Under the pieces are notes generated by a model. That model searched no databases and was not told the DNA's origin. It saw only the letters and a list, made by a program, of their open reading frames with translations. A stretch of 64,000 bases of DNA from a gamma proteobacterium HIMB55. GTDB lineage: Bacteria > Pseudomonadota > Gammaproteobacteria > Pseudomonadales > Halieaceae. Shown in pieces: positions 5,043 through 11,758 of the stretch (within the stretch, counting starts at the first letter, position 1; the number at the start of each line of letters is the position of its first letter). The stretch covers positions 1,198,035-1,262,034 of the forward strand of contig AGIF02000001.1 of assembly GCA_000227505.4 (NCBI GenBank), read 5' to 3'. The position numbers and the translations under genes are program-made.

Positions 5043-5612
5043 TCAATCGATCTCTAGGTGATGTTCAATAAGCGCACAGAGCAAATGTCCGATCACAATG
5101 TGCATCTCTTGAATTCGGGCGGTGACGTCCGAAGGAACAACAAGCGACAAATCAACGGCCTTATGAAGATCTCCGCCCGACTTACCGGACAAGCCAATGA
5201 CACGACTACCGTGCTCTCGCGCCACCTCAACCGCTTTTAAGATATTTAACGAGTTCCCGGAGGTTGAAATAGCAATCAAGACGTCACCCTCCTCCGCAAG
5301 CCCTTCGACCTGCCGACTGAATACCTGCTCGTACCCGTAGTCATTACCAATGGCGGTTAATGCTGAGGTGTCGGTGGTGAGGGCAATAGCGGGAAGCGAG
5401 CGTCGCTCCCCGACAAAACGGCCAATCAGCTCCGCCGCTATGTGTTGAGCGTCGGCGGCCGAGCCACCATTTCCACACAGATAGATTCGCTTGCCGGCTT
5501 GCAACGCACTAGCGCAAATTTGGCCAGCCTCAGCAATTTTTGGCTCAAGCGCCTCCATCGCTCTCGCGACTGAAATATGTTCTTCAAGTGTTTTGCGGAC
5601 TAAACCCTGCAC
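5043..5612 (-). CDS. gmhA: Sedoheptulose 7-phosphate isomerase (phosphoheptose isomerase)
   Basis: GmhA converts sedoheptulose 7-phosphate to D-glycero-D-manno-heptose 7-phosphate, the first step toward ADP-heptose. The SIS domain shows [20 protein letters not shown], the active-site Ser and His region, [17 protein letters not shown], and [11 protein letters not shown]. The frame is open further upstream to 5726, but the extra 38 residues are unlike the family. I chose the GTG at 5612, which has an AAGGGG ribosome site five bases upstream and gives 189 residues, close to the 192 of E. coli GmhA. The adjacent GTG at 5615 is the other candidate. Confidence 0.93.
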
Positions 5613-5827
5613 CACGTCCCCTTCATGTTTCCAATCTCTATAAGTCTGTGCTTCTTGCCCACCACTTCGAAGCTTTAGGCACCTATACCCATAGCCCAGA
5701 GATATTGCTGTTCTCTTATCGATCATTCAGGATCTGGCGTAGCGCTTTATTAAAAAACAGTCACTAGCCACGAACCTAAGCAACGAGATTAAGATTACCA
5801 CGGCCTTATCATCAGGAACGACCCTTC

Positions 5828-8006: not shown

Positions 8007-8921
8007 TCAGTTGGTTTCCCCGATAAAGGCAGTAATTAGCGATACGAGCTCTTCAGGAATATCTTCCTGACAGAAATGCCCTACCCCCTCTACTTGGATC
8101 ACTCGCCCTTCAGGGTAAATTCCTTTGAAATCCGAAATGGCGTGATCTTGAGCAATCGCGTAATCCTTATCTCCTGAAACCAACATTGCAGGCTTTGATT
8201 TCAAAGCCTCCATGTCACCACTTTCCATGGTTTCAAAGACAAAGGGTAAGAATCGCCCGTAATGCACATCTAGCGGGAAATTAATCGCGCCAATGCACGA
8301 ATCCCGATCTGGGAAAGGCGTAGAGTAGGCGCGAATCCATGTGTCGTCGACGGCCGATGAATTCTGAAAGCCGATGATTTTCATAACCGACAGAACAGTG
8401 CTGCCCAGCTCCCCAAGGATGCCGTTTAACGTCCCTGCCTCCTCGTGCTTGGCAATCCATTCAAACCAAGGTGTGCGACCGCCAGCAGCCTGCCCACCAC
8501 CATACCCAAGCACGGTATTAGCAATGAACAATCGCTTTACCCTCTCGGGGTTTCTGACGGTAAAAGCCCCCGCCATTGGTCCACCCCAGTCCTGACAGAC
8601 AATCGTTATATCTTGCAAGTCGAGGTCTTCGACAAAGCGCTCTAGGTTCTCTACATGCGTCTGAAGTGTGTAAACACGGTCTTGAGGCGTTTCAGACTTA
8701 CCGAAGCCCATGTGATCAGGCACAACAACTCTGAAATTCTCAGACAGCGGTCCAATCATTTTGCGATAGAGGTAACCCCAAGTCGGCTCTCCGTGTAGGC
8801 ACAGAACAACCTCAGCGTCCTGAGAACCCTCGTCAACATAGTGCTGCTTAAACCCAGATGCCTCAGAGAACCTTGGAGCGAAGGGCCATGTACCATCGAA
8901 TGTTTCATTCGCATCGATCAT
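8007..8921 (-). CDS. Haloalkane dehalogenase-like alpha/beta hydrolase
   Basis: This protein of about 304 residues closely follows the haloalkane dehalogenase branch of alpha/beta hydrolases. It shows HGEPTWGYLYRKM (oxyanion-hole HGxP with the halide-side Glu), the nucleophile elbow CQDWGGPMAG with Asp rather than Ser, an acidic residue in SGDKDYAIAQ and the base in GVGHFCQED. An Asp nucleophile fits dehalogenases and epoxide hydrolases; the following Trp favours dehalogenase. The ATG at 8921 aligns with the family start; the longer frame to 8987 overlaps the divergent hydroxylase gene. Cytoplasmic. The natural halogenated substrate is not predictable. Confidence 0.83.
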   Translation of the reverse strand: MIDANETFDGTWPFAPRFSEASGFKQHYVDEGSQDAEVVLCLHGEPTWGYLYRKMIGPLSENFRVVVPDHMGFGKSETPQDRVYTLQTHVENLERFVEDLDLQDITIVCQDWGGPMAGAFTVRNPERVKRLFIANTVLGYGGGQAAGGRTPWFEWIAKHEEAGTLNGILGELGSTVLSVMKIIGFQNSSAVDDTWIRAYSTPFPDRDSCIGAINFPLDVHYGRFLPFVFETMESGDMEALKSKPAMLVSGDKDYAIAQDHAISDFKGIYPEGRVIQVEGVGHFCQEDIPEELVSLITAFIGETN

Positions 8922-8975: not shown

Positions 8976-10001
8976 ATGAGTGTGCAAGGCGATTCAAATT
9001 TAACCCAGAGTTCGCGTCTATCGATTGGCGACTATATCCCCAACGCTTTTATCGAGTCGGACGAACATCGACTTGATATTCAGGTCAAAGCAGGCGAGCC
9101 CAACATCTTTGTCGTCATAAACCGCTCACACACGGCGCTGGCTCAGGGCGCTGCTAATCTCAAACTACCCTACCGGCACTTCGTGATAACAGAGGGCGCA
9201 ACCGGTCTTGAGCATTCGCGGCTGTTCGCTAGCGCTGAATTTAGCTCCCTGTTCCTTCATCCGTTGGTACCCCTGAGTGCATTTGTGACGGACGCAAACT
9301 TAAAAGTCGTAGATTTTGTAGACGCGCAAAATCTCGAGGAATTAGAAGCTGAAGTTGCGCAAATCATCGTTGTCCCGAGGAATCTCCCTGCCCCTGTACT
9401 CGTCATTCCGGACGCAATTGATGAAGCACTTGCTGAGGATTTAATTCATTACCTAGATGGTCGTGAAGATCATGGGTTCGTTGCTGACGGCGACTTCAAA
9501 CGTCGACTGCACATCCACCCCGATAGAGACCTTGAGCATCGGTTGGACGACAAACTCTGCAAGTCGGTTTTACCGGAAATCGAGAAAGTCTTTTACTCTG
9601 AAATCACGCACAGAGAGACTTACAAGATTTGTCGATATGATGGTACGAACAGCGGTAAGTTTGGGAAACACCGAGATACGATAGCTCCCCATCTGCACCG
9701 CCGTTATGCGATCACTTTGGTGCTCAATGACGATTACGAAGGGGGCGGGATTGCCTTTCCAGAGTACAACTCAGAAGTCCTTTCGATTCCAAAGTACGGC
9801 GCCGTGGTGTTTCCCGGCTCGCTATTTCATCAAGTAAACAACATTTCATCCGGCAGTCGATACGTGATCATAAGCTTTTTCTTCGGTGAGGCGGAGGCGG
9901 CAGTGAAGGAAGATAGTGAACGGTACCGTTTTACCGTCAAACGTAACGTCGAGGGCCTGACATTGACATCGCTAATGCCTAATCAAACGCTGAGTTCTTA
10001 G
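8976..10001 (+). CDS. Prolyl 4-hydroxylase-like 2-oxoglutarate/Fe(II) dioxygenase with redoxin-like N-terminus
   Basis: The protein has 341 residues in two parts. Residues 1-130 look like a peroxiredoxin-type alpha/beta domain (GDYIPNAF then PNIFVVINRS) without the usual redox cysteines. Residues about 140-330 form a P4Hc-type domain: the HxD iron ligands are in GKHRDTIAPHLHRRYA, a DDYEGGGIAFPEY stretch follows, the distal His is in PGSLFHQVNNI and the 2-oxoglutarate Arg is in SGSRYVIISFFF. Such enzymes hydroxylate prolyl or other side chains in proteins, in the cytosol here because no signal is present. The gene converges on a GT60-type GlcNAc transferase 34 bp away, which suggests a common target. 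Confidence 0.87.
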   Translation: MSVQGDSNLTQSSRLSIGDYIPNAFIESDEHRLDIQVKAGEPNIFVVINRSHTALAQGAANLKLPYRHFVITEGATGLEHSRLFASAEFSSLFLHPLVPLSAFVTDANLKVVDFVDAQNLEELEAEVAQIIVVPRNLPAPVLVIPDAIDEALAEDLIHYLDGREDHGFVADGDFKRRLHIHPDRDLEHRLDDKLCKSVLPEIEKVFYSEITHRETYKICRYDGTNSGKFGKHRDTIAPHLHRRYAITLVLNDDYEGGGIAFPEYNSEVLSIPKYGAVVFPGSLFHQVNNISSGSRYVIISFFFGEAEAAVKEDSERYRFTVKRNVEGLTLTSLMPNQTLSS

Positions 10002-10035
10002 CCACGGTGCGACACCGCATCCCAATATTCAGGGG

Positions 10036-10998
10036 TTATTCGCCCTGATACCTATAGTTTGGAAAAGCCTCTTTAAGTTCTTCGTGGATGCCAGCAAAAC
10101 GGTAGTACTCAAGTAGAGAACGTTCATACCCCATGCCGAACTTTTCACTGCACTCAGTCATCGAGTCCTGATAGACCGGATCGACCTGCTCCAACAAATC
10201 TAAACCCAACAAATATTTGGCTTTAGACCAGGAGGCCTTCGGCCAACCTGTCCGATTACTGTTACTGATGCGCTTTGCTTCATCGGGAATACGATCCCGA
10301 GAACCCGCGTAGTCGGTTGCAACGGCGTGTCTTGTGGGACAAAAAATATCGTAGCCATGGGTCCATAGTCGAACTGCGTACAAAACCTGCTCTTCCGCAT
10401 GCAGGCCAAAATCGAGCTCGGGATCATAGGGAAAGCGGCGGCGATCATCGCTTCGCATGAATAACATCGCCGCACTGATGCCAAATGAAACGATTGGCGC
10501 CTCTGGCAACGTGACCAATGAACCGTGGCTTTTGATCGCATCTGCGTCTACTTGTCGGTAGCGGTTCACATGACCAATCAAGGGAGCATGCTGCTCAGAA
10601 GTCATATTTTTGATGTTAATGGGGTAATGCGAGATCACCGCCCGCTCGTTGAGGGCAAGGGCGCTCTTTAGTTCCTCGATCAGAATCTCATCCCAACCGG
10701 CATAAAAACGTGAGTGACAGTCCAGCTGAAGAAAGTAATCCTCATCTTCCATGAGTGCTTCACATCGCGATCGCGCATAAATAGGGCCTCTCGCCTCCTC
10801 CACCGGAATTCGATCAAGTCGCACTTGTCGTGAGTCGCTTAAAGCCTGGTAGGAATGATCGTGAGCCAGTGCTTGAAGACAGATACCAAAGGTGAGTCGC
10901 TCTGGGTGAACTGCTTGTGCGAGTGCGTCCTCCACTGTGTCGATGACATCAGGATCTGAAAAACAGGCGATGGAGATGAAAATCTTCTGCTTAGCCAC
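10036..10998 (-). CDS. GlcNAc-transferase (GT60 / PF11397-like) acting on hydroxylated protein or glycan
   Basis: This protein of about 320 residues matches the family of Dictyostelium Skp1 hydroxyproline GlcNAc-transferase (Gnt1). Landmarks are KIFISIACFSDPDVIDTVED at the N-terminus, LTFGICLQ, GPIYARSRCEAL, the metal/nucleotide motif DYFLQLDCHSRFYAGWDE, a SFGISAAMLFM segment and HAEEQVLYAVRLWTHGYDIF. No signal peptide or membrane span is seen. The frame is open to 11064, but that overlaps the GST gene; a GTG at 10998 with GAGGT eleven bases upstream begins just before the conserved core. Family assignment is from remembered motifs; the acceptor is unknown. Confidence 0.8.
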   Translation of the reverse strand: MAKQKIFISIACFSDPDVIDTVEDALAQAVHPERLTFGICLQALAHDHSYQALSDSRQVRLDRIPVEEARGPIYARSRCEALMEDEDYFLQLDCHSRFYAGWDEILIEELKSALALNERAVISHYPINIKNMTSEQHAPLIGHVNRYRQVDADAIKSHGSLVTLPEAPIVSFGISAAMLFMRSDDRRRFPYDPELDFGLHAEEQVLYAVRLWTHGYDIFCPTRHAVATDYAGSRDRIPDEAKRISNSNRTGWPKASWSKAKYLLGLDLLEQVDPVYQDSMTECSEKFGMGYERSLLEYYRFAGIHEELKEAFPNYRYQGE

Positions 10999-11011: not shown

Positions 11012-11758
11012 TCAGCTTGTTTGCTTGCCGGCAATCGTGGCGTTAGACGCCATAAACGATCCACCCGCCGCGTAGCGCTTCTTGGTTTCCTCGCTCCACT
11101 GATCGACTTCGTCGGACTTCACGCCGTAAGCGAGACCGCGCATGACGCCAGCGCGTCCGTGAACGCGTTCTTTCCAAGCAAGCACATTGGGATGGAGCGT
11201 GATGTCAATCTTGCTCCACTTGTAGCCTCTGATCCACGGGAAAATAGCAATGTCCGCAATGGTCAGGTCGTCACCACAAACATAAGCTTTTCCCTGTAGC
11301 TGAGTATCTAGCACACGAAGTAATCGCTGCGCCTCAGTATTAAAACGATTTAGCGGATGGACTTTTTGTTCCTCGGGAATATCCGCCATGTAACGCGTAT
11401 AACTCAGTTTGTTACCAAACGTCGGTCCCAAGCACGCCGCCTGCCAAGTAAGCCACTGAAGAACGTCATACCGCGCTGCCCCCGTCGGGTACAAGGGACT
11501 CGGGAACTGCTCCCCTAGATATTGGAGGATGGCACAGCTCTCCATCATCCGAACCGAGCCATGAACGAGTCCCGGGATCTTCTGATTTGGAGAAACGGCA
11601 GTGAAGGCCTCGGAGAACTGATCACCACTCATGATGTCGACGGTGATGACCTCACGTTCAGGCAGTTGCACGCCGGCCTCGATCAACTCCTCGAGCATGA
11701 TGCTGACTTTCCAGCCGTTGGGTGTGGCCGCAGTCCAGAGCTGTAAAGCATCCGACAC
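11012..11758 (-). CDS. Glutathione S-transferase family protein (YfcG/Yghu-like)
   Basis: This 248-residue cytosolic protein has an N-terminal thioredoxin-fold domain (LQLWTAATPNGWKVSIMLEE, then SPNQKIPGLVHG and MMESCAILQYL, the glutathione gamma-glutamyl site) and an all-helical C-terminal domain (LTIADIAIFPWIRGYKW). The TPNGWK pattern is typical of Nu-class disulfide-bond oxidoreductase type GSTs. Start is GTG at 11758 with AGGAG seven bases upstream. It follows the DUF1993 gene by two bases, so the two are an operon. Confidence 0.9.
   Translation of the reverse strand: MSDALQLWTAATPNGWKVSIMLEELIEAGVQLPEREVITVDIMSGDQFSEAFTAVSPNQKIPGLVHGSVRMMESCAILQYLGEQFPSPLYPTGAARYDVLQWLTWQAACLGPTFGNKLSYTRYMADIPEEQKVHPLNRFNTEAQRLLRVLDTQLQGKAYVCGDDLTIADIAIFPWIRGYKWSKIDITLHPNVLAWKERVHGRAGVMRGLAYGVKSDEVDQWSEETKKRYAAGGSFMASNATIAGKQTS

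Follow-up and report, generated by a model that had tools for sequence, protein, structure and literature searches.

A recurrent convergent gene pair of an oxygenase and a GT60-type glycosyltransferase suggests a two-step protein modification in bacteria

In a 64,000-nucleotide stretch of the genome of the gamma proteobacterium HIMB55 (G000, 2.74 Mb; contig AGIF02000001.1, positions 1,198,035 to 1,262,034; the window), two open reading frames (ORFs) converge with a gap of 34 bp. The first (8976..10001, plus strand) codes for a 341-aa protein, here called HYD, with a redoxin-like domain and a 2-oxoglutarate (2OG)/Fe(II) oxygenase domain, assigned from the ORF, a sub-cut-off match to PiuC-type NCBIfam models, an AlphaFold2 (AF2) model and structural comparison with VIA. 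The second (10036..10998, minus strand, GTG start) codes for a 320-aa GT60-type glycosyltransferase (PF11397), here called GT60, assigned from Pfam, an AF2 model and VIA. Both ORFs, and their convergent arrangement and spacing, are as described in an earlier, sequence-only reading, whose observation as a whole (ORFs, families, recurrence) is confirmed. Hydroxylation followed by addition of a sugar to the same residue is known in protists, plants and animals. The pair suggests a bacterial version of this two-step chemistry, as a protein modification so far unstudied in bacteria.

The two families, the predicted folds, the conservation of the oxygenase residues, the purifying selection seen in GT60, and the recurrent linkage and fusion of the two kinds of protein are in hand. 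HYD and GT60 very probably share a pathway, and their acceptor is likely to be a polypeptide. We lean, somewhat, towards the two enzymes acting one after the other on a single target, with protein or peptide hydroxylation first and O-glycosylation second. HYD would draw on O2, 2-oxoglutarate and Fe(II) to hydroxylate a side chain of that target, and GT60 would then add an alpha-linked sugar to the new hydroxyl, probably N-acetylglucosamine (GlcNAc) or another N-acetylhexosamine (HexNAc). For GlcNAc in particular the chances look even, while proline as the hydroxylated residue falls a little short of that, lysine being nearly as likely. Inspection by eye revealed no N-terminal hydrophobic stretch in either protein, which makes a cytosolic site likely.

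GT60 is recognised as a glycosyltransferase family, with Dictyostelium among its sources, and its known enzymes act on hydroxyproline (Hyp) or Thr/Ser. The assignment of 10036..10998 to this type, made in the sequence-only reading, is borne out by a profile match far above the cut-off (PF11397, E 9.9e-47, 160.5 bits versus a cut-off of 21). A profile scan found no other PF11397 gene in G000, matching two stretches of this one ORF. A sequence search of the PDB gave no match at E<=1. The AF2 model (pLDDT 93.4) has a GT-A fold of the polypeptide GalNAc-transferase type: the best 29 rows of the VIA comparison are all polypeptide GalNAc-transferases (GT27; Z 20.2-23.0), followed by B4GALNT1 (16.6). 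Identity to them is 12-17%, and the window protein is without the lectin domain that polypeptide GalNAc-transferases carry (an excerpt of PMC8724618, and general background).

Conservation of the putative active site was assessed in three alignments, A1 (13 rows), A7 (23 rows) and A3 (57 rows; non-pair GT60 ORFs under 1500 aa). The D and H of the DxH motif D93-C-H95 (10714..10722, minus strand), which we take to be the metal/nucleotide-sugar site, are invariant in all three. A C-terminal His that is invariant in 57 of 57 other bacterial GT60 ORFs (A3) is missing from the clade of GT60 proteins that adjoin HYD. At its column the window protein has T228 (10315..10317, minus strand), Thr being shared by all 10 rows of A7 that come from pairs, and the residue that follows is acidic (Gln in L091). 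In polypeptide GalNAc-transferases a His at this place binds the metal, and the metal use of GT60 may therefore differ or be lost. Despite this departure, we name the window enzyme GT60-type on the strength of its profile match and fold. Its dN/dS ratio against the G103 protein is 0.06 (262 codons), indicating purifying selection; in the L082-L084 comparison the ratio was 0.32 for HYD and 0.17 for GT60. These are three of ten comparisons, dS being saturated in the other seven.

A Pfam scan of HYD of the window gave nothing at E<=0.1, and hence no 2OG-FeII_Oxy match. The closest named bacterial oxygenase family is that of the PiuC/PKHD-type hydroxylases; HYD, however, scores far under the cut-off of the PRK05467/PiuC-type NCBIfam models (up to 3.1e-10, 39.9 bits versus 143), and it differs from that family in its additional N-terminal domain and its GT60 partner. 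A single-sequence search of the PDB retrieved PiuC (6.7e-7) and LH3 (1.5e-3), and a profile search retrieved LH3 (3.3e-7), PiuC (1.1e-6) and prolyl 3-hydroxylase 1 (P3H1; 3.2e-4). The 11 sequences that the profile matched at E<=0.1 were LH3, PiuC-type, P3H1 and mimivirus-type lysyl hydroxylase chains, with no PHD or PhyA chain among them. The P4Hc-type residues pointed out in the sequence-only reading (HxD in KHRD, distal His in LFHQV, Arg in SRYVI) are present and align across homologues. The predicted Fe(II)-binding motif H232-R-D234 (9669..9677, plus strand) is the same in every one of the 17 rows of alignment A6. The predicted distal iron-binding H285 (9828..9830, plus strand) and R295 (9858..9860, plus strand), which presumably binds the 2-oxoglutarate carboxylate, are kept in all 16 rows that extend that far, the L091 row ending early, before the region of both residues.

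In the AF2 model of HYD (pLDDT 84.8), residues 138-316 (9387..9923, plus strand), the range used in the VIA comparison, form a double-stranded beta-helix oxygenase domain, and the predicted fold resembles those of peptidyl hydroxylases. VIA re-ranks Foldseek's own matches, and a common fold shows no function. The top row was P. putida P4H (Z 17.9, rmsd 2.8, 163 aligned, 14% identity), followed by PHD2 (Z 17.7, rmsd 3.0, 182 aligned), the small-molecule enzyme SnoN (Z 17.2, rmsd 3.0, 183 aligned), PiuC (Z 16.5, rmsd 3.2, 159 aligned) and LH3 (Z 16.1, rmsd 2.6, 157 aligned), while DdPhyA stood at Foldseek rank 50. Since these rows lie within approximately two Z units, the model points to a peptidyl-hydroxylase-like fold and does not single out the hydroxylated residue.

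The same comparisons bear on a lysyl variant, in which HYD would be an LH3-like lysyl hydroxylase and GT60 would glycosylate hydroxylysine. In the PDB the profile of HYD finds its strongest match in LH3, which also has the highest identity in the VIA table (24-25%) and, judging from molecule names, itself combines hydroxylation with glycosylation. The top VIA rows, on the other hand, are prolyl hydroxylases, with LH3 close behind, and the known GT60 enzymes use Hyp or Thr/Ser. We consider this variant possible but on the unlikely side, and its chances overlap those of the two-step reading given above. What had been called a prolyl-hydroxylase-like enzyme is thus P4H/PHD-like in predicted fold, while prolyl specificity is not upheld, the profile being nearest to LH3 and PiuC. 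The proposed hydroxylation and glycosylation are partly supported, by the GT60-type family, by that fold and by recurrence, with reservations about proline and about GlcNAc.

The N-terminal part of HYD (residues 13-135; 9012..9380, plus strand) is redoxin-like, as recognised through homologues with hhalign. The N-terminus of HYD proteins of the pair clade matched that of fused forms described below (84%, E 7.4e-6); the N-terminus of the fused homologues matched PF00578 (AhpC-TSA) in L098 (9.6e-12) and L095 (5.9e-6) and not in L102, and a profile of their redoxin-like region matched peroxiredoxins in the PDB (E 1.2e-3). Residues 13-135 of HYD contain no cysteine, and so no peroxidatic one. We conclude that the domain is not an active peroxiredoxin; it probably serves binding or dimerisation. 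The redoxin-like N-terminus noted from the sequence is therefore real, as judged through homologues, but the idea that it is exclusive to the pair was rejected, because stand-alone HYD-like proteins show the same N-terminal match in 7 of 12 stretches. These came from 20 stretches fetched from 17 of 18 phylum genomes with HYD-like proteins; the gene caller showed HYD in 12, none of which had a GT60 within 4.5 kb, and the eight stretches without a called HYD say nothing about N-terminus or partner.

By the sequence-only reading's own measure, a missing PF11397 match or a lack of co-occurrence in relatives would have refuted it; the match is there, and the two genes do co-occur. Among 140 family genomes, GT60 matches (E<=1e-3) were found in 17, 13 of them close (>=64% identity), and HYD matches in 26, 12 of them close (>=68% identity). 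Each of the 12 genomes with a close HYD has a convergent GT60 next to it, at gaps of -16 to 112 bp; in G074 the contig stops within GT60, leaving 84 residues of it. In G103, the source of the thirteenth close GT60, the contig also ends, at the point where HYD would be expected. This recurrence, alongside the GT60 dN/dS of 0.06, places the pairing beyond chance; that the two are chance neighbours was rejected on the 12/12 recurrence and on the presence of the pair in other gene surroundings, described below.

What surrounds the pair is partly variable. The glutathione-S-transferase-like (GST-like) gene and the DUF1993 gene are absent beside it in G058, G064, G067 and G103. The haloalkane-dehalogenase-like gene is present in 21 of 57 genus genomes, 12 with the pair; in G087 the locus is cut by a contig end next to this gene, in seven genomes (G059, G073, G077, G084, G088, G104, G108) it has other neighbours, and in G063 it borders a cassette described below. 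In some relatives GT60 carries an N-terminal FkbM methyltransferase domain (PF05050), forming a 571-aa protein in G092 (2.5e-18) and G058 (5.1e-18). The same N-terminus is found in G071 (by blastp) and G070, and in contig-cut form in G083 and G098. In such relatives a methyl group would probably be added as well. FkbM as a constant part of the system was rejected: PF05050 has no match anywhere in the G000 genome, and methylation is therefore not a fixed part. G098 (contigs C69 and C82; L054, L053) contains both a contig-cut FkbM-GT60 and a plain GT60 next to HYD, and may have two copies or be a strain mixture.

Beyond the family, species genomes were scanned with the GT60 alignment and the best 80 of 226 relatives were kept. 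The nearest ones outside the genus, in five gammaproteobacterial metagenome-assembled genomes (MAGs; L090-L094), also have HYD convergent beside GT60, with identities of 44-50% for HYD and 48-55% for GT60 (48-56% in the scan). They represent two other gene surroundings: L090 and L091 share an XseA-like gene and others (by eye), and L092-L094 have a Pro/Thr-rich protein. In L091, HYD ends early and GT60 is split over two ORFs, so that this pair is either decayed or misassembled. Pairwise identities of HYD and of GT60 were correlated (r 0.98; 66 pairs, 12 sequences), as is expected of any co-inherited genes. The Pro/Thr-rich protein (L092 approximately 5100-5650, L093:2467-4362, L094:2772-4649) is divergent from HYD, with a signal-like start (by eye) and PPPGGTTT-type repeats. 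No relatives of it were found in G000, G058, G070, G071, G083, G098 or the genomes of L090 and L091, and as a substrate it is therefore only a lead within one subclade.

These loci speak to the view that HYD and GT60 are neighbours through common descent only and serve unrelated processes. The whole neighbourhood is conserved within the genus, and the pair forms a single clade for each protein, as such a view would have it. Yet the pair persists in two other surroundings at about 50% identity, stays in place while GST, DUF1993 and FkbM vary around it, and consists of two domain kinds that meet again as fusions. We regard common descent without a shared function as highly improbable.

The fusions are found in five alphaproteobacterial MAGs (Rickettsiales or Alphaproteobacteria), where a single ORF of 1806-2456 aa contains three to four GT60 domains and a HYD-like region (L095:4024-9442, which reaches the contig end; L098:8003-14032; L102:8003-14248; L110:7019-13120; L124:6938-14308). 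Each of the three ORFs scanned with Pfam (L095, L098, L102) carries PF11397 together with PF13640, the latter at 1.3e-12 or better, and L098 and L102 also match a further oxygenase family, PF13661; L110 and L124 were assigned as fused by local models. Judged by their domains, these giant ORFs are apparently multi-step glycosylation enzymes on one chain. In a tree of HYD proteins (36 rows) the five fused rows form one clade (support 100/100), and the 16 pair rows form another, supported at 88/91 with stand-alone rows included and at 100/100 against fused rows alone. Support is weak (85/39) for placing the stand-alone rows next to the fused ones, and the tree includes three very long rows. In the GT60 tree (104 rows) a long branch leads to a single clade (100/100) of the 17 pair rows, separate from the fused domains. 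Because the pair and fused clades stand apart in both trees, linkage as neighbours and linkage by fusion either arose independently or go back very far.

Looser associations were also observed. Two further ORFs (L103, L132) are GT60-PF13640 fusions with no redoxin match, a PF13640 gene adjoins GT60 in cyanobacterial L117, L126 and L160, and a PF13640 protein is found within the GT60 cluster of G112 (L059:8549-19428). In G112, G053 (L062) and G019 (L060:8995-11567), GT60 stands among genes for PqqD, 2OG oxygenase, methyltransferase, and sulfotransferase/DUF5672 or O-FucT-like proteins. G019 has a GT60-PqqD fusion, and the three loci resemble peptide-modifying clusters.

Several results weigh against the two-step reading. 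In addition to the Thr of the pair clade in place of the C-terminal His and the high VIA score of SnoN, the conserved neighbourhood means that the 12 family genomes are not 12 independent cases. Convergent genes form no operon, so that joint expression of HYD and GT60 is not implied. A promoter and terminator scan gave no signal exceeding shuffles. The two families are mostly found apart. HYD-like proteins (E<=1e-15) are present in 19 of 398 phylum genomes, that is, in 18 besides G000, and PF11397 is present in only one of these 18, on a different contig. Conversely, 26 of the 28 genomes with PF11397 among 398 are absent from the HYD list (handles shared between the two draws suggest that the same genomes were used). 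In a sample of 369 genomes of the class, HYD (E<=1e-10) was found in G000 and two others, and GT60 in G000 and three others; G000 alone had both, and the short stretches fetched from those two and three others showed no partner.

At distant GT60 loci, PF13640 was found in 3 of 57 ORFs (<1500 aa) and in 2 of 99 immediate neighbours. It was not among the families listed for 97 distal genes, in a table of families with at least two members, so that one match is possible. This sample purposely excluded the pair loci (L081-L094, L096). It comprised 65 loci, in six of which (L097, L099, L111, L113, L125, L133) the gene caller, which picks the longest ORF and makes mistakes where GC content is high, showed no GT60. 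Alignment A3 includes 57 of 64 ORFs, seven of >=1500 aa being outside it; the neighbours are complete (99 of 99, A4), and the distal genes number 97 of 115 (A5; three giant ORFs removed by hand, the last 15 omitted). The PF13640 figures are low because the five fused giants, which are among the seven long ORFs, and the oxygenase of L126, which is not among the 99, fell outside these sets. Since the families are mostly apart across the phylum, we conclude that the HYD-GT60 link is a property of particular lineages and not of both families at large.

The associations of other GT60 genes bear on an alternative, in which the pair tailors a small molecule, a lipid or a cell-surface glycan; HYD would then act on a metabolite or sugar, GT60 would add a sugar in envelope polysaccharide or natural-product synthesis, and FkbM would methylate a sugar. 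The FkbM-GT60 fusion in relatives is consistent with this, as are the Methyltransf_25 match in 14 of 57 other GT60 ORFs, the sulfotransferase, fucosyltransferase-like and epimerase genes found around GT60s elsewhere, the GT60 relatives (at least 588) in viral contigs, and the SnoN row. So is the locus of G063 (L063:935-9005), where the slot between GST and dehalogenase that otherwise holds the pair is occupied by a different cassette. It codes for a TPR protein, two HYD-like proteins (a Pfam oxygenase match was found in the second only), a 978-aa AMP-binding/PP-binding protein, a 365-aa protein that matched no Pfam family, and a cupin/JmjC protein, an AMP-binding/carrier protein thus accompanying HYD relatives. 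However, the best structural group of GT60 consists of polypeptide GalNAc-transferases alone, the sequence relatives of HYD, LH3 and prolyl 3-hydroxylase, are known to act on proteins, and the flanking genes scanned are haloalkane-dehalogenase-like and GST-like. On this evidence, a non-protein target appears unlikely.

A short ribosomal peptide would be a further kind of target, modified by the pair in a RiPP-like (ribosomally synthesised and post-translationally modified peptide) maturation. PqqD domains, which recognise peptides, occur with GT60 and/or 2OG genes in G112, G053 and G019 and in 2 of 57 GT60 ORFs, and PqqD-like ORFs stand beside GT60 in Nostoc L117 (by eye). In G000 itself, there were no matches to PF05402 at E<=0.001, in a search that covered this type of recognition domain (RRE) only. 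Such a maturation is improbable for the window pair.

Modification of a protein, as we prefer to read the pair, is best compared with the protist Skp1 system. According to excerpts of PMC7864055 and PMC6437050, a proline of Skp1 is hydroxylated by PhyA and glycosylation is built from there, and according to an excerpt of PMC6437050, PHYa-Gnt1 gene fusions exist in protists. The order of a 2OG hydroxylase and then a GT60-type transferase is common to that system (Dictyostelium, Toxoplasma) and our proposal, and hydroxylase-GT60 fusions are found in protists (PMC6437050, in part) and here in alphaproteobacteria. The differences are that a sequence search with HYD (PDB, E<=0.1) reached no PHD or PhyA chain, that HYD bears the redoxin-like domain, and that the GT60 of the pair is without the C-terminal His.

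Bacteria are not known to have Skp1. A bacterial counterpart of the Skp1 pathway may still be envisaged, in which a proline of a cytosolic protein would be hydroxylated in an O2-dependent manner and capped by GT60 with HexNAc, methylated in relatives, so that the O2 or 2-oxoglutarate level would be recorded on the protein as a sugar. Such a pathway would have come together in bacteria on more than one occasion, in one case within a giant polypeptide that bears several GT60 domains. Taken in full, this scenario is speculative and rather doubtful.

LH3/PLOD and mimivirus L230 resemble the pair in that the HYD profile matches LH3 best in the PDB and in that hydroxylation and glycosylation are joined on one polypeptide. 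The glycosyltransferase part of LH3 belongs to a family different from GT60, and LH3 works in the secretory pathway. P. putida P4H, the top VIA row, is a bacterial prolyl hydroxylase acting on EF-Tu (PMC7864055, in part), and is thus, like the proposed HYD, a bacterial protein hydroxylase; it differs in its low identity, and the excerpt of PMC7864055 mentions no glycosyltransferase alongside it. A bacterial hydroxylase-GT60 pair was not named in the titles and abstract openings of the open-access literature searched, most subscription papers lying outside that coverage. If the pair works as we propose, hydroxylation-dependent glycosylation extends to bacteria, where it may act as an oxygen-dependent switch, and with the fused forms it could be tested in single proteins.

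In the window, the gene order is haloalkane-dehalogenase-like, HYD, GT60, GST-like, DUF1993 and M24-peptidase-like (the last label by eye). The haloalkane-dehalogenase-like gene (8007..8918, minus strand), a conserved neighbour, is divergent from HYD, and the GST-like gene (11012..11758, minus strand) is upstream of GT60; we place both outside the system. A viral origin of the pair was considered and set aside, since a search of viral contigs with the HYD alignment gave 38 pattern matches, none of which was confirmed as a relative. The viral contigs (L161-L240) contain the many GT60 relatives counted above, of which 80 loci were kept. In two of the 80, L175 and L221, a local model revealed a 2OG oxygenase-like gene nearby.

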